From positions 35,057,956-35,121,955 of the forward strand of contig CM048851.1 of assembly GCA_026545225.1 (NCBI GenBank): DNA of 64,000 bases, read 5' to 3'. A model generated the notes under the pieces. The model saw nothing but the letters and a program-made list of their open reading frames with translations. It ran no database searches and was not told where the DNA came from. The position numbers and the translations under genes are program-made. Shown here piece after piece: positions 1,817 through 63,117 of this stretch. The stretch comes from Cornus controversa. Its lineage: Eukaryota > Streptophyta > Magnoliopsida > Cornales > Cornaceae. Positions within the stretch are counted from its first letter, which is position 1, and the number at the start of each line of letters is the position of its first letter.

Positions 1817-4800
1817 ATGGAGTCTATCTCGCGTCCTCTCTACAGAAATCAAGCCTCCTCTGCGACTCTCTCCAAGAAACTCTCGAATGCGAGTGGCTAT
1901 TTCTCCTCCAAGAACGCATACGACGACGTTTTTTCCGGTCCGCGGAAGTTCAGAGCTCAGACTTCGTCTCCGACAGTCGAAGATTATGTTGAGATTTTTG
2001 GTGGCTCTCAAGCTTCGCGTGCTTCTTCAATTCCGATTGTTGATCTTTCGGCTCTGGATGAAACGAGTGTTTCGGTTGATGCTTGGAGGTCGAAACTCGA
2101 TTATTCTAAAATTTTCGGAGGTTTTCGAGATGAGGAAATTGCTTCACCTTATGAAGAAGGGTTTGCGAAACCAAAGAAAGGCGAAAATTTCTCTGACAAG
2201 TCAAGGTGAGTTCTCTGTTTGTCCTACAAACTAAAAAAAATTGAAATTATCTGCTTGTTTTCTGTAGATTGTGGTTTTTTTTCACTTCATTTTGTTAAAT
2301 GCTTATTCAAATTGGAATCCAAATATTTATTCATATTTCACATTGAAGCATGTTGTTTTAGCAATGACCAATCTGTTAGCAATTAGCATCCTTCTTGTTC
2401 TTGCTATTGTTGTAGTTGTGCAAGGTAGATGTAACTTTTCTTTCATCTTGAACAGTTTAATTGCTTGTAGCAAAAGAGGAAAATTAAAAAGTTGAACTTT
2501 AAACTTCATTAGTATTTCTCTTTTTTTTTGTGTTTGCCTTTTGGGTTATATGAGATTTGAGTATGTAGCCAATAGCCATAATAGAGCTAATTGGACTAGA
2601 TTTGTGTATGTAGCCGTTACAGCACTAATAGGACTAGTTGATGTCAAACGGTTGAATAACCTAAGAATAAGTTTTAAGAATACTGCAAATTGTTAACAAA
2701 ATGTTACACCTTTAGCACACAGGTTGTGGAATTGAAGCTACAAGGCTTTGACAAGGCCACCATAAGGACTTAGTAGTTGTTCTTTTTGTAGGATGCAATT
2801 CGAGAACATGACATGTTACTAATTACATGTATTTTGACCCCTTACTTGGTTGCCACAAAAGTTGAAGGGAAAGAAGTTAAAGGATAGAAAGGAGTTGGTT
2901 TTGCTGGTGGAATGGTAGATAGAGTAGTGGCGGTGAGAGGTGGCGGCGTTGGAAAAGGTTGTGTTAGCTCATTGCTTGGTGCAATGATGAAAACTTGGAT
3001 TAACAAGTGTGAGGGCATTGGTTTAAGTCCGACTAATCACTTTGTCTAAAATAACGTCAAAGATTAACTCTCCTAGCATCTCACATGAACAGGAGTCACA
3101 AGACCAACACTGGATAACGGTGGTAGCAATAATAGCACATCTGCCAATTTGTAGATATTTGATTAGAGGTTTTGAATGTGGTCATAAGATTTTACCTTGA
3201 CCCTCTCATGAATTACTGGGAAACTAGTGGTAAATATAATAGGATTTAAAGATAGGGAGGGAGTGAGGATTGAGGAAAGTATCTGCCTCTCCAATTAGTT
3301 AGTATTAGTAGAATTTGGTTATTAGTTCATTAAGTATTTCTGTAAATTCCACGTGCTCTCCCCCCCTCCCCCTTCTCTTTCAAGCCCTAGTTTTCTTTGA
3401 GTAGGTTGTTCAGTTCATAGCTCTCTTTGGTCTGGGACTTGCAATTTGCTTCTGTATTATTGCCGTTTTAATCATTTAGAAGGTTGTTGTGATAGGAGGT
3501 TGGAGTAGAAGTTATTTTGCAAGCGCATTTTGAATTTTACAAATCATCAGCATTGTTCTCTCTCTTTTGGGCTATTGATAGATTTGAGCTCCTTGTGAGT
3601 ATGGCCTGTGGGAGTAGACACAAGGTATAAGGAGTTTGGATGATAAATTGCACTGTAAGGCCAGAGTGGTTGATCCAATTGTCAAAAATAGAACATGTCC
3701 CCAATTGCACTTGGTGGATTGAAGGTGACAAGACATTGGTGGACTTTAGTAGAACACTAAATTGATTGTTTAGCATGGTTTCCGTGAGAAACATGTGTTT
3801 TGAAGCAACCACTTTGTGCAAACTAATGCCAGAGGTTAGCTAGTCTCCAGCTTTTATTTCCCTGCATGTTGCGTAGGCGAGACCAACATTGGGCTATACT
3901 GATGGGAAGTGTGGAGCCTAATTATACTGTACACCTTGGCCCAACTAGCTAAATAGCTATTTTAAACATTGTGTTACATCAAAACATTATATTGCTCTTA
4001 AATCTATAATAAAAGTACTGAATAATATGAATATTTTGCTGAGTCCTCGTGTCCTTGTGTTTGGAGAGAGAATGAATTCGACGCTTAGACACATATCCAT
4101 ATTCGAGACTGTGTAACATAGGAACCGGGTAGTGCCATTTCATTTTTTCTTCTTTCCATCTTTGAATTCCCCCCTCTCCCCGCCCGGTTTATTATTATCT
4201 GTAAAGGTTTTAACTGTCTTCCATTTTTATTTATGTGCAGGACTCTGGCTGAAACAGTTCCTCCTTACGAAGGGTCAGATCATTTAAATTATTCTAAAGA
4301 GAGTCAACTGTTTTCAAGTGAAGCATCTCATGAATCATTTGATGGTGTGAAGCAGTTTAACATGTCTTTTCATAAAACCAATCAAAGAAGAAACAATGTA
4401 ACGAATGGGACAACACACATAGCTCAACTTCATGCTGTTCCTGGATTTACTTATTTTGTTGATGAAAAAACTCCTCTGCAGAAGACAGAATGCGATAATT
4501 TGGTGCCCTCGCTAAAAAGTGATGCTAATTTTGGAATGGATTTCAGGAAGGGATTAAAGGAAGGCAAACATCATGGGAAGGCCGGGTCAAATCTCACTAA
4601 GCAACACAATTCTGACAGTGGGGTTAGAATTGACAGCAACTGTAGTCCTGATAAATTCCATTCAAATGATAAGTCATTTTATGCATATGAAATTCCTTCT
4701 AATTTTTCATCACCTTCAAGTCTGCCTACCAAATTAGGTGGTAGTAAAGGTGATTTCAAGAGATCGGTGACTTCGAACTCTGAGGTTTTAAAAAGTAATG

Positions 4801-7800
4801 TTTCTAAAGGTGGTCCTGGTGGTTGTTCACCACCATTCTCTGATGAGGAAGTAGATGTGAATTCAGCAGCTGCTGCCTCTGCAGCAGCTTTGAGAAATGC
4901 AATAGAGAAGGCTCAAGCAAGTATAAGAATTGCAAAAGAATCAATGGAACGGAAGAAGGAAGGTTTCCGAAGATTTCCAAAGCCAAGTTCTAAGGATGGT
5001 TTGGATGCTAAGGACAGAAGGGACAATAAAGTTACTGGCGAAGCAAACAGAACAAAAAAGAAGAATGCTAATGGAATACGTGGAAGAGTGGATGCTGCAT
5101 CACAAGTTTTTGCAGGAATTGAAAGGCAAAATGCAATGAGAAGTGGCAAAGTAGCTCCAGAATCCAAAGATAGTGAGAACCTTTTTATTGCTAGAAACAT
5201 TGTTGTAGAAGCAGATGGGAACAAAGCGGAAGCAACCAAAGAATGTGAAGCAACAGGACCATTTCCTGAAGTGGTAAACACAAACAAGCACTTGGTATTC
5301 AAGCAAGCAGACAGCAAAAACATCATGCAATCTGTAGATGCCCATGAATGTGCAAGCAATGAGATGAAAACTGCTAAAGAAATTTTTGAACAGCAAGAAG
5401 GAAATGGTATGAAAGTAGTTGAAGAAGCTCATAAAGTGGACAATATAGAAAGGACACTGAATGCATTTAGAATTGCAGAAGACTTGGAAGAGCATGTGAT
5501 TAGATTGGAATCAGCTCAAGAGGTTCATGGGCAGGATGAAAATGAAATAACAAGAGCTGCCCAAGACGATGAAGAAACTAAGGAGACACAAAAAGCTTTC
5601 TGTGAGCAGGGAAAATGTGAGAAGATACTGAAAGAAACTCATGAGCCAATAGAAAATGAGAAATTTGAGTGCCAAGAGTGGTTTGAGTGCCAAGAGTGGG
5701 AGGAAAGTGATAATGAGGAGAGACCAAGTGATGCCCAGGAGTGGATGCAAAATGAGAAGAAACAAGAAGAGGTTCTGAAACAAGAAGACAATGAGAAGGA
5801 AGAAAATGAAACCAGACTACAAAAGATTCATGAACAAGAAATTGAGAAGAGACAAAAAGAGGTTTGGGAATGGGTAGATTATGAAAATAAATTAAAAGAG
5901 TCCTGTGAAGGGGAAAGCCATGAGAAAAAACACAATGATGAGCACAAGAAAGGCGAAAATGAGAAGAGGTTGGACACGGTTAATGATCTGGAAGTAATCA
6001 AGAAGAAACTGAGTGAAAATTATGATGGCAGAGAAAGTGAGAAGAGACTAAAAGAGGACTCTAAGTGGGAAGGAAATGAGAAGAAGCGTACAGAGGCTCA
6101 TGAATATGATAAGAAGCTTATAGAGGCTCGTGAATATGAAGAAACTGAGAGTATACAGAGAGAGATGATTGACCTAAGCCAAGATAATGGGAAGACAGAA
6201 ATGAATCAAGAGGCTGTTGAGGAAGAGAAGAGTCTTGATGCAGCTAGTGAAGAATGTAAGAGGGATGCAAGTGAAAGCATGAGTGGGACTCAAGAAGCCA
6301 ATAGAAACAATGAAAATGATAACTACTTGGACATAAATCCAGAGGTAACTGCGCGTGAAGAGGATGAAAGGAAACTGCACGTTTACAAATCTTTCTGTGA
6401 ACTTAAAGAGGATGAGAAGGAACCAGGAACAGTTGAGGTGGAATATGAGCTGGAGGAGAAAGTTATATATAAAGCAGCTGGCTTGGCTAAAAGTGCTGCT
6501 GAACACATTGAGATTGAAAACGGAATGAACGATGCCACTAAAGCCTTCCTTTTTTATGACAATCAGATAGATACTGATTTAATCAAAACAAGTTTTGGAC
6601 GAGAACAAATTGATCAGAATGAGAAGGAATCTGAAGTGGCCTCCAATTCAGGGAATGGTGTGATATTGGAGCATGAATCAGGAGAAAACTATGAAAAAGT
6701 CAAGTCTGAAATTGCATTTGATCAGGGTAAAGACAATAATTTTGAAATAGCTCTTGAGGAAAGTCAAGAGGTTGAACTGGGAAACAAATTGGATGCTCCC
6801 CAACCAGAATCAGGAGAAAGTGAAGAGGTTGAACTGGGAAACAAATTGGACACTCCCCAACCACAATCAGGAGAATACAAGAAAGAAGTCAAGGAGGCTA
6901 AAATTGCCTTTGATCAGGGAAAAGACAATAATTTTGAAATAGCTCATGAGGAAAGTGAAGAGGTTGAACTGGGAGACAAATTGGATGGTCCCAAACCACA
7001 ATCAGGAGAAAGTGATGAGGTTGAACTGGGAAACAAATTGGACACTCCCCAACCACAATCAGGAGAAAGTGAAGAGGTTGAACTGGGAAACAAATTGGAC
7101 ACTCCCCAACCACAATCAGGAGAATACAAGAAAGAAGTCAAGGAGGCTGAAATTGCCTTTGATCAGGGAAAAGACAATAATTTTGAAACAGCTCATGAGG
7201 AATGTGAAGAGGTTGAACTGGGAGACAAATTGGACGCACCCCAACCACAATCAGGAGAAGACAAGAAAGAAGTCAGGGAGGCTGAAATTCCCCTTGTTAA
7301 GGAGAGAGATGAGAATAATTTTGAAACAGCTCGTGAGGAGAAAGAAGAGGTTGAAATGGGAAACAAATTGGAAGCATCTCAACCATCTAAACTTTACGAA
7401 CTTGAAGGAAAAGAAAAAACGGTGAAAATAGATGAGGAGATCAAACCAAACCAAAATACCAGAAAGAATGAGGCGAATGTTAATGGATCCTTTGCAACGG
7501 AAGATAAGGAAACCAAAGAAACTGTACAAATAGAAATGGTGGAAAAAGAGCACCTTTTAAAAACTGATGAAGCAAACAAGAGGGAAAAAGACAGAATAGC
7601 TGTTGAAAGAGCAATCCGTGAAGCTCGTGAGAGGGCATTTGCTGAGGCTCGAGAAAGAGCTGAAAGGGCTGCCGTGGAGAGAGCAACTGCTCAAGCTCGC
7701 CAAAGAGTAATGGCTGAAGCCCGAGACAAGTTTGAGAAGGCTCCTGCAGGGAATAAATCATCATCTGAGAAAGCTTCGGTGGAAGCTAAACATAGAGCAG

Positions 7801-9381
7801 AACGTGCTGCAGTAGAGAGAGCAACTGCAGAGGCTCGGGAGCGTGCCCTGGAAAAATTATTATCCCAGAAGGCTACCTCTGTAGCAAGAGAACAGGCTGA
7901 AAGAATTATTTGCGAGAGGTTTTGTGGTGCTTCCAGAGATAATGAAATGATGCAGAGCTCTTCTTCCTCTGTGAGTATTTCTACCATTCATCATGTTCAC
8001 TACTTCACTCTCCTCTGTCATCCATGAAGCATATTATTCAGTTGCATGCGGAACAATTGACAGAAAATTTCTTACAGGATCCTCAGAGATCTAATGAAGC
8101 TAATGGTGAATCATCTCAGAGGCACAAGGCAAGTTTAGAGAGGCACCAAAGGACAATGGAACGTGCGGTATGCATCTTGCTGTTGTTTACATTAGAAAAC
8201 AATATTGTTGACCTTTGCCAAGATTGTTTAAATGTTTGTGTCCTGTTCTCTTTCAGGCAAAAGCTCTAGCAGAGAAAAATCAGCGCGATCTTCTTGCTCA
8301 GAAGGAGCAAGCTGAGAGAAATGTATTTATCTGTTCAAATGAGTTACTAAGATTATGAAATTAGTGATTATGCATGGATGTTTGACTTATGGTTCTGTAT
8401 CTATTATAATTACAGAGATTAGCAGAAGTCCTGGACGCCGATGTCAAGAGATGGTCAAGTGGGAAGGAAGGCAACTTGCGTGCTTTGCTTTCAACACTAC
8501 AATATGTATGTGCAAGCCTACTACTTTGGCTTAATTTTTATTTGGCCTTATTCTAAGTATTTATTGCTCTAAATTGTGCTGAAATACTAATGCAAATTCA
8601 CCTTTTAGTAAGTTCTCATATATTGTAACGAATTGTGAACCAAAAGGACCATCCTCGCCACTGAGGGGGAATTTCCCAACCAAGAGGGATTCTGCTACTT
8701 GAATAACAATTAACAAATAGGTTCCCTTACATTACATCGTTTAGAAGTACTAATATTTACAAGTAAAGTACTGCATTTTATAGAATTGAAGATGAGATAC
8801 ACCAACGGTATTTTATTTCTGTATAGAGTTTTTTACCATCATATCAAGGGTTCATTGTACTCTCTTATTTTGTATTGAACAGCACTAAATATGAATAATC
8901 GAAAAGTAGTTGTCTTGGATTGGGATTAACTCGAAAACTGGCAGTAGCAGTGTTAACTGAATTTCTTATTTTGCAGATTCTCGGACCTGATAGTGGTTGG
9001 CAACCTATTTCCCTAACAGATATTGTAGCAACTAAAGCCGTGAAGAAGGCTTACAGGAAAGCCACTCTTTATGTTCATCCTGATAAGTTGCAGCAGCGTG
9101 GTGCAAGCATTCAGCAAAAGTACATATGTGAGAAAGTTTTCGATCTTCTAAAGGTTGGTGCTTGATCTCCTTTTTGAGCAATTTTTACATAGGTGACCAC
9201 TTTTATGGATTTGTGATGGCATGAGAGTTAGGTAGAGAAAAACTACAACCATAGTACAACAGATAGGGGAAGAACACAGCAAGTTCCTTGGTATTAGTCT
9301 TGCCTCTCTTCAATTCTCACCTACTTTCTGGTTGTGTCATCACAGGCAGCTTGGAACAAATTCAATCCAGAAGAGAGGTAG
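1817..9381 (+). CDS. AUL1: auxilin-like protein 1 type J-domain protein (clathrin uncoating)
   Basis: Seven exons by hand: 1817-2205, 4241-7970, 8078-8167, 8257-8322, 8416-8505, 8977-9153 and 9346-9381. All introns are GT-AG and the frame stays open, giving 1525 aa. Intron 1 is about 2 kb. Residues 1456-1514 form a C-terminal J-domain with the HPD tripeptide at 1489-1491 (VHPDK). The protein ends soon after WNKFNPEER, as auxilins do. Residues of about 1245-1357 are rich in Arg, Glu and Ala (AVERA and AEARERA motifs) and predict a long helix or coiled coil. The middle is acidic, low in complexity and contains a tandem repeat. Family knowledge: auxilins recruit Hsc70 through the J-domain to strip clathrin from vesicles, and Arabidopsis AUL1 is of similar length with the same layout. 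The start at 1817 is the first ATG after the CT-rich leader. The assignment to AUL1 rather than another plant auxilin-like member rests on length and architecture. Confidence 0.9.
6727..7330 (+). repeat. in-frame tandem repeat coding for acidic repeats in the auxilin-like protein
   Basis: A block of about 54 bp (motif [10 protein letters not shown] then PQPQSGE) occurs about six times. Some copies are joined by a longer spacer (motif KKEVKEA, then [10 protein letters not shown]). Together they form a higher-order unit of roughly 250 bp. Copies are nearly identical at the DNA level and every copy keeps the frame, around residues 955-1170. This suggests recent expansion by unequal exchange or slippage in a disordered region. 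Confidence 0.85.
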
Positions 9382-12476: not shown

Positions 12477-12955
12477 AAAAAAAAGAAATCTCCCACTAAG
12501 TCCCATGTAGGTCTGTGTCTGGCGTGGTGGGTTATTTTTGTGTTGATTGGGTGGGTGTTTTCCGGCTACCCGGGTGGTGGTTTTGGGTTGACCTATTCGT
12601 GTTCATAGTGTTAACTTAGAGCCCAAGCTTGTTTGTAGTTCTTTTGCATGGAAACGCATAGCTTATGAAAATTCATATATGTTTTTTTTCTCTCTTTGAA
12701 ATGTCAAGCAAAGTATATTGATAAAATTGTAAAGATAGAAAAGCCCATTGAATGGGATAGGCCCAAACAAAGAAAAAAGAAGCCCGAAAAGACTTAAGCA
12801 ACAATAAGCCCAACCCAACTTATTTCTATTATAGATTAAGCCCAAATGGCTTAGGCTGGCCCATATTGAAATAGGCCCAAGATCATTCAATTTGTAATTA
12901 AAAAAATATTAAATTATGAGAGAAACTTGTTTGATAAGTTTTGACTTTGTATTTA
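12477..12955. other. spacer with a cluster of GGCCCA/TGGGC motifs
   Basis: No gene is seen. Between about 12740 and 12885 the motif AGGCCCAA or AAGCCC/TGGCCCA occurs about seven times. Such motifs resemble TCP-binding site II elements, but here they lie more than 3 kb from the nearest gene start and may belong to a repeat family, since a similar cluster lies near 15870-15935. Confidence 0.4.
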
Positions 12956-14018
12956 GACAAAAGGGTCTAAAACCATCCTGTATTTTTAAAAAGGTGTAAT
13001 AAATCTCCCTATACTATATTTTGGATCATATCACATATTCACTTTTGCAAAAGTGAGTAAAGTACTCCATTTTGCACATATTCTTTTTTATGACCATTTT
13101 ATCTTTTTCATTATTATAAAAAATAAAGATTAATAGAGAGCAGAGAGATTTTTTTATATTAACTTTTTTTACCTAATAAAAAAAAGAGAAGTTTTTTTTT
13201 CGAGAGAAAAAACTAAAAATGCACAATTACATAATAAAAAATTTTGATTTTTTTTTGTTTTCCAGAAATTGTTTCCGAAAATTTTTCCATTAGAAAGAGG
13301 GGTTTTTTTTTTATATATTAAGTTTTATTTAACTTAATAAAAAAAGAGGAGTTTTTTTCCTGAAAAAAATATTCCAGAAATAATTTCCAAGGAAAAAAAA
13401 CTAAATATGCAAAATTACTTAATAAAAATTTTTGATTTTTTTTTTCCAAAATTGTTCCCGGAAATTTTTTTCATTAGAAAAAGAGAGAATTTATGAAAAT
13501 AAAACAATGTTTGAAAAAATAAAACAAAAATTCCAATTTTTTTATTATTGTGCATATTTAGTTTTTTCCCCAAAAATTATTTCTGAAATTTTTTTCTCCG
13601 AAAAAAACTCCTCTTATTTTTTTTATTAAGGTACAGAAAAACTTAATATAAAAAACCACTCGCTTTCTAATGGCAAATTTTCAAAAATACAAAAAAAAAG
13701 AAAAAAAATCCAAATTTTTTTATTATATAATTGTGCATTTTAAGGTTTTTTTTGGAAATATTTTTCTCGAAAAAATAACTCCTCTTTTTTTTATTAAGGT
13801 AAAAAAAACTTAATATAAAAAAACCCCTCTTTTCTCTATTTTCATTATTTTTTATAATAATGGAAATGGTAAAATGGTCATAAAAAAGAAGAATATTTGC
13901 AAAATGGGGTATTTTGCTCACTTTTGCAAATGTGAGGGTGTGAAATAGTCCAAAATATAGCATATGTGGATTTATTGCACCTTTTAAAAATCACAGGGGA
14001 GTTTTGGACCCTTTTGGC
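12956..14018. mobile_element. MULE-type MITE with long inverted arms and 9-bp TSD
   Basis: The 9-bp sequence TTGTATTTA is found at 12947-12955 and again at 14019-14027, directly outside an element whose ends are GACAAAAGGGTC and GGACCCTTTTGGC, inverted complements with few changes. The inverted arms run about 300 bp each side and include copies of CACTTTTGCAAAAGTGAG-like sequence. The interior is itself built of repeated, inverted T-rich subunits, so nearly the whole element can fold back. There is no coding capacity. The 9-bp TSD supports the Mutator superfamily. Confidence 0.85.
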
Positions 14019-14249
14019 TTGTATTTAAATTAAAGTTTGACTATATAGAGACTTTTTAGAAGTTTCCAAAACTTTTTTGTTTTTAACATTATATAGTTTT
14101 TCTTTTTGAAAAATATGAAACTATAAAAAAGTTTCCTTTTAAGACTATCCAATTAAAATATGAAAAGTCACATGGGTTGGGACTCTCTCTAAATTTAATA
14201 ATTATTAAATTACAACATGGGCAATCACTCTATCTATGTGTTATTATGT

Positions 14250-21596: not shown

Positions 21597-21828
21597 ATTT
21601 TAACCCTAGTTTTACTTTTAGGTCATTCATTCACTTTATTAGTTGATACAAATATTAAAAATGTATGGTAAATAAATATATATATCTATACTATTATTAA
21701 AAGTAAGAAGTGGTTTTTTAGTTTCAATACACTATTTTTTTATTTTTAAATTAAAAAATAGAATTACCCAAGCAAAACTCTTTCCTTTTTTATTTAAATT
21801 ATTTCTCAATCAAAACCCTTTTCTTTTT

Positions 21829-22986
21829 GGGAAAATTAGATTTTGGTGACCAATCCTAAACAAAATTACTCTAAAGTGACCATAAAGTTTGGAAAAGATA
21901 AATAGTCACCAAAATTGAAACTTAATTGCTGATGAGTGACCCTTGGATCACTTATTACATAAATATCCTTCATCTAATAAATTATTTATAATTTGACAAA
22001 TTGACCCTTTACATTAATCTCAATTAAACATTTTACTTCAAGAGTTGCTTAATAAGCAGCCACTCTTTCAAGTTGCCAAATAAATATTTAGAAATAACTT
22101 TTAACTAATAATTATTTATTTTTATTTTCAAATATTGTATTATTTATATTCTTATTTATTGTAAAATTGGATTCAAATAATGTGTAAAAGTGGAGAACTT
22201 TTTATTATTTTTATTATTTATTTGTAAGTGATGCTAGAAGTTGTTATTTGGTGATGGCAATCAGAATACTGGAGTAATAATTAGAATAAGAAACAATAAT
22301 TTAGAGTGGCAATAATTAAAATCTTTTTCTCATTTAGTTGGATCTCGTAGTGATTTTGTTTTTTTTTTTTTATGGTGGTCTTGTTTTGTACAGAGCTTCC
22401 TATACAATTTATATCCATAAGAATTCTTTTGTAATATTTAAAATTCTGCAAAAAAAAAAAAAAAATGTTAATAGAATGAAATCTCCAACATAAAGTACCA
22501 AAAATCTTTTAATGGTTTATCCAATCCAATCAACTGAATCTTGTGAGTTCTATGCGGAAGTAGAGTGAATACCTATAGAGAGGTTGAATAGATGTAGTTA
22601 GCATGGTTGATTTATTTTAGAGTACGCTGATAGATATATTATTAATCAAGAATCAAAACATTAGCTGCTAACATGTATCTCAATACTATCTTTTTAATTA
22701 GTAGACTGACAAATTAAAAAGAAAAAAAAAAAGAGATTGATGAATGAGAAAGAGAGAGGAGAATGAATTCAAAGAGTTTATATTTATATTGAATGGTAAT
22801 TTCATCATCTAACAATTATTTTTAAAATGTTTAATAAATATGAAGTGTTTTTTTTACCAAATTAATTTCAAATGGTCACTCATCAGCAATTAAATTTCAA
22901 TTTTGGTAACTATTTATCTTTTTCGAACTTTATGGTCACTTTAAAGTAATTTTGTTTAGGATTGGTCACCAAAATCTAATTTTCCC
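21829..22986. mobile_element. MULE-type non-autonomous element with 9-bp TSD
   Basis: Terminal inverted repeats of about 115 bp are nearly identical. The left starts GGGAAAATTAGATTTTGGTG and the right end is its complement, closing CTAATTTTCCC at 22986. TSD TTTCTTTTT occurs at 21820-21828 and 22987-22995. The interior has no coding frame. It lies about 140 bp inside the Helitron's left end, so it inserted into the Helitron. Confidence 0.85.
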
Positions 22987-23420
22987 TTTCTTTTTTATTA
23001 ACCCTTTCTTTTTATTTCTAATTTCTAAATTTACTTTTTTATTTAAATTATTTCCCAAGCAAAACCCTTTCCTTTATATATATATATAAATAAACAATTA
23101 ACTTGGTCGTGTATTATTGTAGTAGAAGAGATTCTATAATTTAAAGCGGGTGATTTCAGACAGTTTAATCTTCACAAAGTTTCAAAACTTTTTGCAGGTA
23201 ATTTTTTTAAACTACCATACATACATGTTCATCTTAGTCCAGTATGTTTTACATGAATTCTTTTTATTTGGTGTGTTTGTGTACTAATTAAATACACCGT
23301 ACGTATTATGCATATATATGCATTTATGTACATGTCTATATGATCTATGAACAACATATACAATGTTTCTTGGTAATCATTGATCAACATGTAGTAATAA
23401 TTCTGATTCGTAGTAGTGTG

Positions 23421-23451
<31 letters not shown>

Positions 23452-23701
23452 TTAACCAAGAGAAATTTAACTATCTCTCTTGGTAATCAACTTATATGTC
23501 ATAAGTAGGATACATAGATATATGTATGGTCTCTTTTCTGACTTTTGATGCAACTGCTAGAAGTATATATGGTGTATATAATCATATTTGGTGTATATTT
23601 TTTGTGTTTAGCTCAGAATATTAATTGTAATAGAACATGATTGGATTTTATATGCATAATGCACTTAGAGATATATAATTAATAATGGTTGTGTAATAAA
23701 T

Positions 23702-24271
23702 TGTAGTAACTCTTGTGGACGGGTGTGAGTGGGCGGGTGCGAAGACAGACACTGGGCTGAGCTACCACATTGACAGGATACAGGGTGCTCAATCCCACAT
23801 TGCCTGGGTGTGGAAAAGGGGATGTGCTTATATGTAGTATGTTCTCTTCAAATGGTATGAGGCCTTTTGGGGTAAAATCCAAGAGCAAAATCGTGCGGGT
23901 TCAGGCCCAAAGCGGACAATATCATACCATGTGTTGGAGTGGGGTATTACAATTGGTATCAGAGCCTGAACCCAGCCGGAAGTGTGCCGACGAGGGCGTC
24001 GGGCCTCGTAGGGGGGTGGATTGTAGTAACTCTTGTGGACGGGTGTGAGTGGGCGGGTGCTAAGACAGACACTGGGCTGAGCTACCACACTGACAAGGTA
24101 CAGGGTGCTCAATCCCACATCGCCTGGGTGTGAAAAATGGGATGTGCTTATATGTAGTATGTTCTCTTCAAATGGTATGAAGCCTTTTGGGGTAAAACCC
24201 AAGAGCAAAATCATGCGGGCTCAGGCCCAAAGCAGACAATATCATACCATGTGTTGGAGCGGGGTATTACA
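23702..24271 (+). mobile_element. complete TRIM retrotransposon (terminal-repeat retrotransposon in miniature)
   Basis: Two direct LTRs of 250 bp (23702-23951 and 24022-24271), both TGTAGTAACTC...GGTATTACA, enclose a 70-bp interior. The interior opens with ATTGGTATCAGAGCC, matching a primer-binding site for initiator tRNA-Met, and closes with a purine-rich GTAGGGGGGTGGA polypurine tract. TSD TAAAT lies at 23697-23701 and 24272-24276. No protein is encoded, so it must be mobilised in trans. The duplicated Helitron block at about 25670 has the empty site. A partial LTR of the same family occurs at 60392. Confidence 0.93.
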
Positions 24272-24420
24272 TAAATAATATTATATTTTAAGATTTTGTG
24301 TTAGGGATGAAGTTAGAGAGTGAAGAAATAGAATTAAAAAAAATACTTATTTAAATAATATTATATTTTAGGAGTGTGTTATGAATGAAATTAGTGAGAG
24401 AATAAATAGAATTAGAAAAA

Positions 24421-24699
24421 GGGAGGCGATATTCGCACTCTCATTTTTTTCATATGTACTCCCATTTTAAAAGAAATGTCACTTTTAACCTTAACTTCAC
24501 ATCATTTTTTCAAAATACTAAACTATCCTTTTAGATATCCTCTCTTTATCTCCAATCTTTAATAATTTTTTTATTCTTTTGACAGAATAAACCAAAAAAT
24601 ACAAAAAAAAAAATACCCTAAAAAAAATAACCCAAAAAAAAAAGTTTTGGACCCAAAAAAAGTTATATATGTTGAATAAATTATCTTTTGACAAGACAA

Positions 24700-24738
<39 letters not shown>

Positions 24739-25326
24739 CTCTTTTGGCAAGAATCAAAAATTAAAAAGTACCCAAAAAAAAGTTATCATGTTCAATAAAT
24801 TATATCTTTTGACAAGACCCAAAAACAAAGTACTTGAAAAAATTTATTCTTGTTAAATAAATTATCTCCATTGAGAGGATCCAAAAATAAGTTATATATT
24901 TTTAATAAATTATCTCTTTTGATAGGATTAAAAAAAAGAAATGATCTCTTTTGGAAGGACCGAAAAAAAAAGTTAAAAAAAAAGAGTAATATTTGTTAAA
25001 TAAATTATCTCTTTTGACAAGTTTTTAAAAAAAAAAAAACCTTAGAAAAAGTTATCTTTTTTGACAGGAGCAAAAAAAAAAAGTATTAAAGAAGGTAAAA
25101 AAAAAAATTTTTTTGTTGACAGAAACCAAAAATAAATAAAAGTAATATAGAAAGTAAAGAAACTAAAAATAAAGTTTAAGTTTATAGTATAAAGGATAGT
25201 TGTGGTATTATAAAATAAGTGATGATGTATTAATTAGTACTTTAAGGACCTTCTTGTCATTTCTTTTGAAAGAAAAAGGTAAGTGGAGTGCAATCGTTAA
25301 AAATGGGAGTGCGAATATCGTCTCCC
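24421..25326. mobile_element. TIR element (probable MULE-type MITE) with internal A/T-rich repeats
   Basis: The ends GGGAGGCGATATTCGCACTC and, read as complement, GGGAGACGATATTCGCACTC are almost perfect inverted repeats. Flanking sequences TTAGAAAAA and TTGAAACAA are a degenerate candidate 9-bp TSD. The second copy of the surrounding duplication has ATTAAAAAAATATC uninterrupted at this place. The interior is made of degenerate copies of a unit containing AATAAATTATCTCTTTTGACA. Confidence 0.75.
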
Positions 25327-26334
25327 TTGAAACAAATATCACTATATAAGAATTATAATATATATTTTTTATTTTTTTGAATTTTAAAAATAAAAAGATG
25401 GTGTGTTATGGATGAAGTGTGAGAGAAAGAATAAATAGAATTAGAAAAGTTATAAAATAAGAATTATAATTTTATTTCTATTTTTTCTGAAATAGGAAGA
25501 ATTTGTGTTAGGGATGAAGTGTGAACTAAATTGGAATTCTAACCTAATTAAGCCATATTTGGTGTAGATTTTTTGTGCCTAGCTCGAAATATTAATTCTA
25601 ACAGCAAATGATTGAATTTTATATGCATAATGCACTTAGAGATATATAATTGATAATGGTTGTGTAATAAATAATATTATATTTTAGGAGTTTGTGTTAG
25701 GGATGAAGTTAGAGAGTGAAGAAATAGAATTGAAAAAAATATACTTATTTAAATAATATTATATTTTTGGAGTATGTGTAAGGAATGAAATTAGTGAGAA
25801 AATAAATAGAATTAAAAAAATATCAATATATAAGAATTATAATATATATATTTTTTTTATTTTTTTGAATTTTAAAAATAAAAAGATGGTGTGTTGGGGA
25901 TGAAGTGTGAGAGAAAGAATAAATATAATTAGAAAAGTTATAAAAATAAGAATTATAATTATTTTTTTTCTGAAATAGGAAGAATTTGTATTAGGGATGA
26001 AGTGTGAACTAAATTGGAATTCTAACCTAATTAAGTCACTCTAAATGGATTTGAAATTCTTTAGACATTTAAGAAAAAAAAGAATTCTAATTAAATTAAA
26101 TGACTTGAAACTCCATAAATTATTTTTTCTAGTTAAATTATTTAAATTTTAAAAATAGGAAAATTTTGTATTATGAATGAAGTGTAAGAGAAAGAATAAA
26201 TAGAATTAGACAAACATATACATATTAATATATAAAGATGGGTAAAATACTTTTACAAATTAAAATATTTATTATATTAATAGTTTTAAACTTTGTCTTA
26301 CATGGATAATATATACTTGAGACCATTAAATAAT

Positions 26335-26830
26335 ACAAAAGTACAAAGGGGTTTTTTAGTTTCAGTACACTATTTTTTATTTTTAAATTAAAAAATAGAA
26401 TTATCCAACAAAATTCTTTCCTTTTTTATTTTGAAATTAAAAAAATAAAATTACCCAAGCAAAACCCTTTATACTTTTAAAAGTACAAAGGGGTTTTTTA
26501 GTTCCAGAACACTATTTTTTTATTTTTAAATTAAAAAAAAATATAGAATTACCCAAGAAAAATTCTTTCCTTTTTTATTTTGAAATTAAAAGAATATAAT
26601 TACCCAAGCAAAACCCTTTTCCCAAGCAAAACGGGTTTTTTAGTTTCAGTACACTATTTTTTTTATTTTTAAATTAAAAAATATAATTACTCAATAAAAA
26701 TCCTTTTCTTTTTTATTTTGAAATTAGAATAATAGAATTACCCAAGCAAAACTCTTTCTTTTTATTTCTAATTTCTAAATTTAAAAAAGCAAAACCCTTT
26801 TCTTTTTTTATTTTTAAATTATACCTTCTA
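26335..26830. repeat. degenerate tandem repeats near the Helitron right end
   Basis: Four to five copies of a unit of about 130-150 bp each carry GGGTTTTTTAGTTTCAGTACA, then TTTTTAAATTAAAAAA, then AATTACCCAAGCAAAA. The same unit occurs once next to the Helitron left end (21710-21780). They may be remnants of repeated nested Helitron ends. Confidence 0.65.
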
Positions 26831-27701
26831 ATTTCTTATATTTTATACTTTTCATGTGAATAATAGTTAACTTATATTACCAACGTTATATAATGGATTA
26901 ATTAACGTGTTTGGATGTATTATAATAGTTTTGACTGTTTTGGATATTATAATAAAATTTTAATTTATTTTTAATCAACGTGCATCGCATATGCTTTAAA
27001 CTAGTATATATATATATATATATATATATTACCAATTTAATTGGTATTTTATATTTTCGGAAACCTGGAAAGGTTGGTAATGATATGGGCTTTTTAACTT
27101 TACAAGTATGGGGCTAAGTCCAATCATGTCCCGGAACCGAAAACAGAAGCCCAACTAGAAGCCGAGCCAATTATTGGAAAATTAACGGCTAATATACATA
27201 GAGGGTCCATAACAACAGTATATATAACTGAAATAAAAGAATAGCTATTATTTCTTCTTCTCCGGTGACGAGCATGCTCTGTATCCAGTGATATGGGCTT
27301 TTGTTATATATATATATATGCTTAACATGCATGCATGCTTCTTGAAATATATTATACTTTAATACTCTAAATTTTTGATTTGGGATTAATGTCCAGTGAA
27401 ATTCGGAGCTCAAGGAGAAAGGAATGGTACTTTTTTCACACCAAGAGACAGAAAGCATTTGAAAGGGCAACGACCAAGTAGAATTGCTAGAGATGGATAC
27501 TGGAAGGCCACTGCTAGCTGGTGATAAGGCTGCCGAGTTTAATGGACGTTCGGTTGGATATAGAAAGACATTGGTATTCTTTCAAGGAAAAGCTCAAAAG
27601 GGGAACAAAAAAAACCTCCTGAATTATGCAAGAATATATAGTAGATATTCCTTCCAATACTCAAAGGGTTCAAGAAGATACGAGAGTACGTATGTATCAA
27701 C

Positions 27702-38589: not shown

Positions 38590-39700
38590 TACTCGCCATT
38601 TGCTAAAATTTCTCTTGACAAATTGTGCCCTAATGGGGTTAGCTGACAATGCTCTCGGAATTAACTCATTATACCTTTTTCTTTAAAGATCCTCTGTACG
38701 AGATGTGCCCCAATGGGGTTGATTGACAATATTTTTGGAATTAATTCATCCCGCCTTTTTTTATTTAAAGGCACTCTACACGAGGAGTGCCCTAGTAGGG
38801 TTGATTGACAATATTCTTTGAATTAATTATCCCGCCATCTTCATTAAAGGCGTTCTGAATGAGGTGTGCCCTAGTGGAGTTGTTTGACAATGTTTTCAGA
38901 ATTAATTCATCCCTCCTTTTCATTAAAGGCCCTCTGAACAAGGTGTGCCCTAGTGGGGTTGATTAATAATGTTCTCAAAATTAATTTATCTCACCTTTTT
39001 CATTAAAAGGCCCTCTAAACGAGGTGTGCCCCAGTGGGGTTGATTGATAATGTTCTCGGAATTAATTCATCTCGCATTTTTCATTAAAAGGCCTTATGAA
39101 CAAGGTGTCCCCCAGTAGGGTTGATTGACAATGTTCTCAGAATTAATTCATCCTATATTTTTCATTAAAGGTCCTTTAAATGAGGTGTGCCCTCAGTGAG
39201 GTTGTTTGACAATGTTCTCGGAATTAATTTATTTCGCATTTTCATTAAAGGCCCTCTGAACGAGGTGTGCCCCAGTGGGGTTGATTGACAATATTCTATG
39301 AATTAATTCATCATACCTTTTTCATTAAAGACCCTCTGAACAAGGTGTGCCCTAGTGGGGTTGATTGATAATGTTCTCGGAATTAATTCATCTTGCATTA
39401 TCATTAAAAGCCCTCTGAACGAAGTGTGTCACAATAGAGTTGTTTGACAATGTTCTCAAAATTAATTCATCCTGCATTATCATTAAAAGCCCTCTGAACA
39501 ACGTGTGTCACAATAGAGTTGTTTGACGATGTTCTCGGAATTAATTCATCCCGTCTTTTTTATTAAAGGCCCTTTGAACGAGGTGTGCCCCAATGGAGTT
39601 GATCGATAATGTTTTCTCGAAATTAATTTATCCTGCCTTTTTCATTAAAGGCCATTTGATCGAGGTATGCTCCAATGAGGTCGATTGTTCATTTTTTGTT
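38590..39700. repeat. tandem array, about 80-bp unit, about 14 copies
   Basis: Each unit contains CATTAAAGGCCCTCTGAACG, AGGTGTGCCCCAGTGGGGTT, GATTGACAATGTTCTCGGAA and TTAATTCATC. Unit starts fall at about 38763, 38843, 38921, 39001, 39082, 39162, 39242, 39322, 39401, 39481, 39561 and 39643. Copies differ by roughly 10-20 percent. The array adjoins a gypsy gag/integrase remnant and may be the tandem-repeat UTR typical of some plant gypsy elements. Confidence 0.9.
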
Positions 39701-59195: not shown

Positions 59196-60326
59196 TGTTT
59201 AGGGATGACAATTTTGTCCGCCCCGTCCCGTCCCGTTTAGGACCGGTATGGGAGCCATTTTTTTTCCGTAAGGGCGGGTTTGGGAAAAAAAATCAAAACC
59301 CGTCGCGGGTTTGGGACTCTATAATAACCCGCCCCGCCCCGCCTATATATTTTATTATTATAAATATATTTATATGTGTGTGTGTGTATATATATATACA
59401 AATTATAATTTTACTTTTGGTTGTTTTAAGACTTATGTTTTCATTTTATCTTTTTGTTGTATTAACACTTCTTTAATTGTTGGATCAAATTTGTTACTAA
59501 GTTATTTAGTTGTGAAATATATTTTCTGTAATAGGCTATTTAATTGTGAAATCTTATCATTTTACTTCTTAAATAGGGGTTATATTATTTTGAATTTAAT
59601 AGTATCAAACTTGGTACTATCCACTAGGCTCGTATTTTTTGAAAAAATTAATTTTTATTAATGTTTGATGTGGTTACAATTTTGTGGGGAGGGGCCCCGC
59701 CTCGCCCTGTCTCGTCCCACCCCTTTTGAAATTTTAAACGAGGCAGGGCGGGGCGGGGACGGGGTGGGGTTTCTCCCAACGGGGAGGGGATGGGTTTTGA
59801 AATTCAGTCCCGTTTCAAACCCACCGCGGGTTTGGTAATAGTATTAAAAGTAGCGGGGGATGGGAATGGTTTAGGCAAACCCGTGTCGTACCCGCCCCGT
59901 TGCCATCCCTAAACTTGTTGAAGCTTCATCACCAACTCTCTCTCTAGAAAGTTCCACCATCTACGACTCTCCCTCTCTCTAGATATTTTTATTTCTAGAT
60001 ATTTCTCTCTCTAAAATTCTCCTTCTCTCCATATATCTCTCCGTCTCTAAAAAGTTCAAAAGAAAAAGAACCGACTTTGTAAGTCGGTGGAGAACCCGTA
60101 TAAATAGCTATCTTGGGTTCATTTTGTATGTGTAGAGTGGAGACACCAAGCCTTGGTGTGAGTGAGCTAACAAGTGTGATATGCTTTGAGTGTATAAAAT
60201 GTGAGTGAGTGTGTCTTGTGTGTAAGACTTGTATGTCCAAATACTTGTGTGTTATTGTGTACCAAGTTGTGTATTAATAAAAAATATTGTTCCTAGTATT
60301 CAAGTCCACTATTTTTAGATTCAACA
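59196..60326 (+). repeat. copia left LTR (split by hAT)
   Basis: TGTT at 59196-59199 is followed by the hAT insertion. The LTR resumes at 59916 and shares with the right LTR the block TTTCATCACCAACTC-like start, CTAGAAAGTTCCACCATCTA, AGTGGAGACACCAAGCCTTG and the terminal TTTTTAGATTCAACA. It lacks the internal duplication present in the right LTR. Confidence 0.9.
59200..59911. mobile_element. hAT MITE, family 2 copy B, nested in copia LTR
   Basis: The ends TAGGGATGACAA and TTGCCATCCCTA are inverted repeats. A perfect 8-bp TSD, AACTTGTT, is at 59192-59199 and 59912-59919. It matches the copy at 41172 throughout, including the GC-rich flanks and the AT-rich centre. It inserted four bases inside the copia left LTR, so it is younger than the copia insertion. 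Confidence 0.95.
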
Positions 60327-60391
60327 ATATTTTGGTATCAGAGCCAGACGGTCAAGGATCGCCGCCTAGAAGAAGTACCGCCCAAAGCTAA

Positions 60392-60631
60392 TGTAGTAAC
60401 CCTTGTGGACGGGTGTGAGTGGGCGGGTGCGAAGACAGACACTGGGCTGAGCTACCACACTGACAGGGTGCAGGGTGCTCAATCCCACATCGCCTGGGTT
60501 TGGAAAAGGGGATGTGCTTATATGTAGTATGTTCTCTTCAAATGGTATGAGGCCTTTTGGGGTAAACCCAATAGCAAAACCGTGCGGGCTATGGCCCAAA
60601 GCGGACAATATCATACCATGTGTTGGAGCGG
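60392..60631 (+). mobile_element. partial LTR of the TRIM family
   Basis: Starts TGTAGTAACCCTTGTGGACG and follows the TRIM LTR at 23702 almost base for base to TGTGTTGGAGCG, but lacks the last 12 bp or so (GGGTATTACA). A 42-bp direct repeat (GTCAAGGATCGCCGCCTAGA onward) flanks it on both sides (60348-60390 and 60637-60679), so the copy sits between repeats in the copia leader and not in a simple 5-bp TSD. Confidence 0.85.
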
Positions 60632-60849
60632 AGACAGTCAAGGATCGCCGCCTAGAAGAAGTACCGCCCAAAGCCAGGTTGTCAGAGATAGTCTAGACGA
60701 AGTGCTGCCAGAAGATTGGAAGTGGTCAGGGGCCGCTTAGAAGATTGGAAGTGGTCAGGGGCCGCTTAGATGAAGTGCTGCTAGTGGATTGTAAGTACAC
60801 GCAGTCCGGGATTGCGCAAAGTCGATTGGTCTGGACCAAGCTCGATAAG

Positions 60850-62623: not shown

Positions 62624-63112
62624 TCTTGAAGTTTCATCACCAACTCTTTCTCTAGAAAGTTCCACCATCTACTCTCCATCTCTCCCTCTCTCTAGATATT
62701 TCTATTTCTATATATTTCTCTCTCTAGAATTCTCCTTTTCTTCTCTCCATATATCTCTCTATCTCTAACAAGTTAAAAAAAAAAAGAACTGACTTTCTAA
62801 GTCGGTCGTATAAATAGCTATCTTGGGTTCATTTTGTATATGTAGAGTGGAGACACCAAGCCTTGGTGTGAATGAGCTAACAAGTGTGATATGATGTGAG
62901 TGTATAAGCTGTGAGTGAGTGTGTCTTGTGTGTAAGACTTGTATACAAAGTATTCAGTCTGAGTGAGTTGTACTAGTGTCCAAATAGTGTGGTATTCAGT
63001 CTGAGTGAGTTGTACTAGTGTCCAAATACTTGTGTGTTATTGTGTACCCAAGTTGTGTATTAATAAAAAATATTGTTCTTTGTATTCAAGTCCACTATTT
63101 TTAGATTCAACA
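62624..63112 (+). repeat. copia right LTR
   Basis: Starts TCTTGAAG where the left LTR has TGTTGAAG, so the terminal G is mutated. Ends TTTTTAGATTCAACA. About 80 bp longer than the left LTR, mainly because the block TATTCAGTCTGAGTGAGTTG is present in two tandem copies (62951 and 62993). Otherwise it closely matches the left LTR. Confidence 0.9.
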
Positions 63113-63117
63113 AAACT

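Follow-up and report, generated by a model that had tools for sequence, protein, structure and literature searches.

The Mothra elements of rice are, in anatomy, the closest described parallel to the repeat family reported here. In the portions of the published description consulted (PMC4683698), these non-autonomous Helitrons have a 5' TC, a 3' CTAG, a 3' hairpin and a low GC content, all of which recur in the family from Cornus controversa. Internal blocs of tandem repeats, an absence of coding capacity and a high copy number are also part of that account, and are likewise found in the present family; the likeness is one of described anatomy. The Helitron marks at this locus match those given in the consulted parts of PMC4683698 and PMC8969392.

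For the TRIM at this locus, a comparison is offered by the plant TRIMs, of which 156 families have been published according to the sections of PMC4717578 used here. The window TRIM shares with them its length of 570 bp, LTRs of 250 bp, a PBS, the fact that no coding domain was found, and the occurrence of tandem arrays, which the same sections describe as common in plant TRIMs; it is likened to them as a group, by description. Cassandra TRIMs are also short non-coding LTR elements with tandem arrays, but they contain a 5S rRNA-like sequence in the LTR. Identity with Cassandra was rejected, because no 5S rRNA-like match was found in the region even at E values up to 10.

The DNA analyzed (referred to as the window) is a stretch of 64,000 nucleotides with a GC content of 33%. 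The locus within it is almost certainly a Helitron copy with an ancestral tandem block, into which three unrelated elements inserted after the copy had landed. The positions of its features are listed in table 1.

Table 1. Features of the locus (window positions unless a locus is named).
Feature	Position	Strand	Remarks
Non-autonomous Helitron copy	21685..27004	+	5' TCTATACTATTATTAAAAGT, 3' ...CTAG; between A21684 and T27005
Mutator-like element nested in the Helitron	21829..22986	.	119-bp terminal inverted repeats
First ~485-bp Helitron block (A)	23583..25553	+	split by TRIM and TIR element
Left TSD of TRIM	23697..23701	+	TAAAT, read in the window
TRIM	23702..24271	+	570 bp: LTR 23702-23951, interior 23952-24021, LTR 24022-24271
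Primer-binding site	23954..23966	+	TGGTATCAGAGCC, complementary to the 3' end of tRNA-Met
Purine-rich tract preceding the 3' LTR	24010..24020	+	AGGGGGGTGGA, direct reading
Right TSD of TRIM	24272..24276	+	TAAAT, read in the window
Left TSD of TIR element	24412..24420	+	TTAGAAAAA, equals the family target
TIR element, most likely Mutator-like	24421..25326	.	906 bp, non-coding, A-rich internal repeats
Right TSD of TIR element	25327..25335	+	decayed to TTGAAACAA; target length kept, 6/9 matching
Second Helitron block (B)	25554..26038	+	uninterrupted; empty sites 25668-25672 (TRIM) and about 25812-25820 (TIR element)
Broken Helitron_like_N, PIF1 and fn3_6 fragments	L025 7771-9766 (G000:C6, near 50508808)	same as block pair	

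The tandem block and its Helitron host

An initial annotation of this DNA had described a duplicated block with a TRIM and a TIR element in the upstream copy and an uninterrupted downstream copy. Self-alignment of the window showed this arrangement to be real, with two abutting versions (A and B) of a block of about 485 bp. The block limits were nearly correct to the base, with the start at 23583 rather than 23575 and the end at 26038 rather than 26035. In order along the alignment, the gap-free pieces of A and B were identical at 102/113, 63/65, 37/39, 36/39, 33/35, 86/89, 16/16, 5/5 and 73/75 positions, and with the insertions removed the divergence was K2P 0.057 over 474 columns. The self-matches between the blocks had E-values of 4.9e-43, 2.5e-59 and 6.8e-92, which excludes chance. 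Two gaps were large and correspond to the TRIM and the TIR element, each with its TSD copy; all others span a few bases.

The interval was searched against the window's own genome (772 Mb), where 40 of 8361 candidates were scored, namely the window itself and 39 other places on C1-C10. Among these best 40, all 39 other places carry the block together with the sequence after it, and at 33 of the 39 the match list shows a first block aligned without interruption over at least 445 of its 481 bp. Twenty of the 39 loci were fetched (14 of the 33 with a one-stretch first block, and all six others). The family matches begin on the left at 21650-21681 in all 20, and on the right they end at 27000-27031 in 19, the exception being L025, which matches only a TA run. 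Beyond these shared ends the flanks are dissimilar between the fetched loci.

The left end of the element reads TCTATACTACTATTAAAAGT, and its right end consists of the hairpin ACGTGCATCGCACGT, followed by GCTTTAAACTAG and then by T. With T21685-C21686 at the 5' end and CTAG at 27001-27004, the termini have the form expected of a Helitron (5' TC, 3' CTRR), and at the occupied site in the window the element lies between A21684 and T27005 with no TSD. The junction CTAG|T is retained in 14 of the 20 other fetched loci and is absent from six. In the 13 loci with a strict match to the 5' pattern (first match listed), A precedes the 5' end in 11, and L014 and L018 have T. The hairpin ACGTGC-ATC-GCACGT with its tail, a 27-base 3' pattern, was found exactly at 69 genomic places, and at none for the pattern read backwards. 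In the window, one arm of the hairpin is altered at two positions. A 22-base 5' pattern occurred 407 times in the genome, some of these being repeats inside members, and was never found read backwards. The region is thus one copy of a dispersed non-autonomous Helitron family, and the block pair is an internal feature of it.

These results alter the meaning of the tandem duplication, which exists as the initial annotation had it, but is not a local event. That the duplication arose at the window locus, with the other genomic copies being duplicates of the region, would agree with the abutting of the blocks, as in a simple tandem duplication. This reading carries next to no weight and was refuted by the copies throughout C1-C10, by the sharing of ends without the sharing of flanks, and by the differences between first and second blocks, which are specific to position. 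Across the loci, first and second blocks are distinguished by six alignment columns; the first block of the window has the first-block state at 6/6 of them, and its second block has the second-block state at 5/5 readable columns. In a midpoint-rooted tree of the blocks, printed without support values, the 14 complete first blocks and the first block of the window form one cluster. Rows labeled _A for L022-L027 are second blocks, as only one complete block was found at those loci, and two of them (L025 and L026) sit beside the first-block cluster. Since the block-specific differences are common to the loci, the duplication predates the spread of the family.

Empty sites and the two insertions in the first block

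Block B provides an empty site for each of the two insertions in block A. The TAAAT that flanks the TRIM on both sides is present once in block B, and a deletion scar, which had been named beforehand as the result that would overturn the proposed order, was sought at both sites and was found at neither; both sites read as they do in the other family copies. In the first block, the TRIM site is empty in 37 of the 39 other scored members (the remaining two being without the region) and the TIR site in all 39. At the 20 fetched loci, both blocks are uninterrupted at the TRIM site in 18 (in L025 and L026 this holds for a single block) and at the TIR site in all 20.

TIR elements are able to excise, and the window by itself does not rule out that block B lost such an element, so that both blocks would once have held the insertions and the insertions would be older than the duplication. 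LTR elements are not known to be excised precisely. Together with the scarless block B, its single TAAAT and the empty first-block sites of the other members, this makes a loss from the downstream copy exceedingly improbable, and among the 39 scored members it is refuted. The duplication is therefore older than the spread of the family, and the insertions are younger than the window copy. The borders, TSDs and empty sites, and the order of events relative to the duplication, were directly observed, and they uphold the two central proposals of the initial annotation, namely that the downstream empty sites prove both insertion borders and that the insertions followed the duplication. The limits assigned there to both inserted elements, the TRIM and the TIR element, coincide with those determined in the current study.

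The TRIM has two LTRs of 250 bp with ends TG...CA (TGTAGTAACT...GGGTATTACA). Of ten other copies whose flanks were retrieved, eight have an exact 5-bp TSD, as seen in the window. The PBS of the TRIM is the complement of the 3'-terminal 13 nt, including CCA, of the host tRNA-Met (gene in L092, CCA added). The 16-base tRNA-Met 3' end used as query occurred 37 times in the genome and not once read backwards, and one of six fetched matches was recognized by ARAGORN as a tRNA gene (Met, anticodon CAT). No gag or pol was found in the TRIM, whose interior measures 70 bp and whose sole frame of at least 100 aa (23828-24214, minus strand) had no Pfam match. In the genome search, 40 of 5200 candidates were scored, and apart from the TRIM itself the full-length ones were 93–96% identical. 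Among these best 40, five overlapping matches at C10:13943273-13945137 indicate tandem arrays with shared LTRs; overlapping full-length matches forming such arrays were also seen at C2:70503587-70505059 and C2:82748951-82750159.

Other sequences of the same TRIM family were encountered in Helitron members and elsewhere in the window. The member L021 has its own full TRIM (6076-6646, near G000:C1:111610775) with the TSD TTGGA, at a different site that is equivalent to about 26911-26922 of the window, and L017 has a 250-bp solo LTR at the 3' border of the Helitron. One full TRIM and one solo LTR in 20 loci are too few to judge whether the TRIM favors this Helitron family. In the window itself, an LTR of the family lies at 60392-60631 (94% identical, the last 9 or so bases missing), where two copies of a 43-bp repeat (42/43 identical) enclose it in place of a 5-bp TSD. 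It directly follows the PBS (60333-60345, in the region 60333-60675) of another element, the likely LTRs of which match between 59918-60327 and 62626-63113.

The TIR element has arms (24419-24462 and 25285-25328) that are 82% complementary over 44 nt, and its ends read GGGAG(G/A)CGATATTCGCACTC. The canonical 22-base end occurred 211 times in the genome and never read backwards. From 2625 genomic candidates 40 were scored, the 39 non-self ones being 73–88% identical in the main match. The TSD could not be read from the window alone, where the flanks match at only 6 of 8 or 6 of 9 positions, and this approach was rejected. The family supplied the answer: the empty-target sequence AATTAGAAAAAATATC is exact in 13 of the 20 other first blocks. 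The left flank is then TTAGAAAAA, the target of 9 bp, and on the right a copy of equal length has decayed to TTGAAACAA.

Mutator-like elements are known for ends that start with GGG, long TIRs and a 9-bp TSD, and hAT ends usually begin with CA or TA. Flanks were fetched for 20 of the 39 other TIR copies, selected because their matches extend to, or almost to, both ends. A perfect flank repeat of 8 bp was present in six of the 20 (one within a TA run) and one of 9 bp in five, and the flanks of ten were within one base of an 8-bp repeat. Among mismatched flank pairs, used as a control, only 3/380 were perfect at 8 bp and 0/380 at 9 bp. The 8-bp repeats would suit a hAT-type element, as would their rarity in the control pairs. 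Against this stand the perfect 9-bp repeats, the length of the window target, which fits 9 bp, and the GGG of the element's end, so that a hAT origin is unlikely and the element is more probably Mutator-like. It resembles Mutator-like elements in its GGG ends and 9-bp TSD (in the window, and exact in 5/20 copies), and differs from them in TIRs of only about 43 bp and in the exact 8-bp flank repeat of 6/20 copies. A somewhat more doubtful idea is that the transposase of this family cuts its target with a stagger of 8 bases about as often as with one of 9; if true, such relaxed spacing would lie between what is normal for hAT and for Mutator elements.

A third insertion and the relative age of the elements

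The two insertions of the initial annotation are both real, but the Helitron host and a third nested insertion had been overlooked. The latter (21829-22986) is flanked by a perfect 9-bp TSD, TTTCTTTTT, at 21820-21828 and 22987-22995, and its joined (empty) site was found in 18 of the 20 family loci. It shares GGG-starting ends, long TIRs and a 9-bp TSD with Mutator-like elements, the class being assigned from the ends and the TSD. Among the best 40 of 1604 candidates, its closest relative (C10:44215131) is 99% identical, and for this reason it is a candidate for the most recent of the three insertions.

Dating the TRIM by its LTR divergence had also been proposed. The LTRs differ at 13/250 sites (11 transitions, four of them at CpG, and two transversions), which gives K2P 0.054. 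At substitution rates of 1.3e-8, 6.5e-9 and 2.5e-9 per site and year this corresponds to about 2, 4 or 11 My, a spread which yields no firm age. The value does not by itself give the order of events either. The window Helitron differs from the column majority at 24/957 sites (0.025; the median of 20 others is 0.029), and half the LTR divergence is 0.027. With 0.027 against 0.025 per lineage, divergence alone does not place the insertions after the Helitron, and ordering the insertions in this way was rejected.

The locus almost certainly formed as follows. The family members descend from an element that already held the tandem block of about 485 bp. After the window copy had landed, it received three unrelated, non-coding elements: the TRIM, with a TSD of 5 bp, and two Mutator-like elements, one with short and one with long TIRs, with a TSD of 9 bp each. 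The TRIM and the short-TIR element fell in the first block, so that the second keeps the pre-insertion sequence. Spread of the Helitron was presumably due to a RepHel protein made elsewhere; the TRIM would owe its copying to enzymes from a larger LTR element, and each TIR element would have moved by cut-and-paste through a transposase acting in trans.

The structure is the ordinary anatomy of nested transposons in a plant genome, every part is of a known kind, and no new question of mechanism is opened. To the initial annotation the analysis adds a Helitron as host, a third nested insertion, the target duplication of the TIR element and many more empty sites. The repeat family served as its own control, in that empty sites within the element and across the family fix borders and TSDs, and the order of nested insertions relative to the duplication was obtained without a second species. 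Borders are thereby given for one non-autonomous Helitron, one TRIM and two TIR families in the C. controversa genome, and one Helitron member next to broken RepHel fragments is pointed out.

RepHel fragments at a family member, and other features of the window

The genome contains 77 matches to Helitron_like_N, one of which lies within the family member L025, which has the 5' end and the block pair. Downstream of the blocks and in the same orientation, Helitron_like_N (E 1.7e-26) and the PIF1 helicase (E 1.3e-21) are matched by broken frames, and the PIF1 match is followed by one to a plant-type fn3_6 domain (E 3e-10). The remaining seven of the ten L025 frames searched had no match. The 3' end of the Helitron family was found neither in L025 nor in the next 4000 bases, and the fragments may for that reason belong to another Helitron. 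L025 may be the remnant of a RepHel-encoding relative, or two Helitrons may be adjacent there; the fragments possibly come from a decayed coding relative that had captured part of a gene.

Three further features were noted in the window. A large inverted repeat at 12955-14019 is 76% identical to its own reverse complement over 1120 columns. An open frame of 1264 aa with long internal tandem repeats (4233-8027) had no Pfam match, and an array at 38624-39687 consists of about 13 copies of a 79-bp unit with 80% matches.
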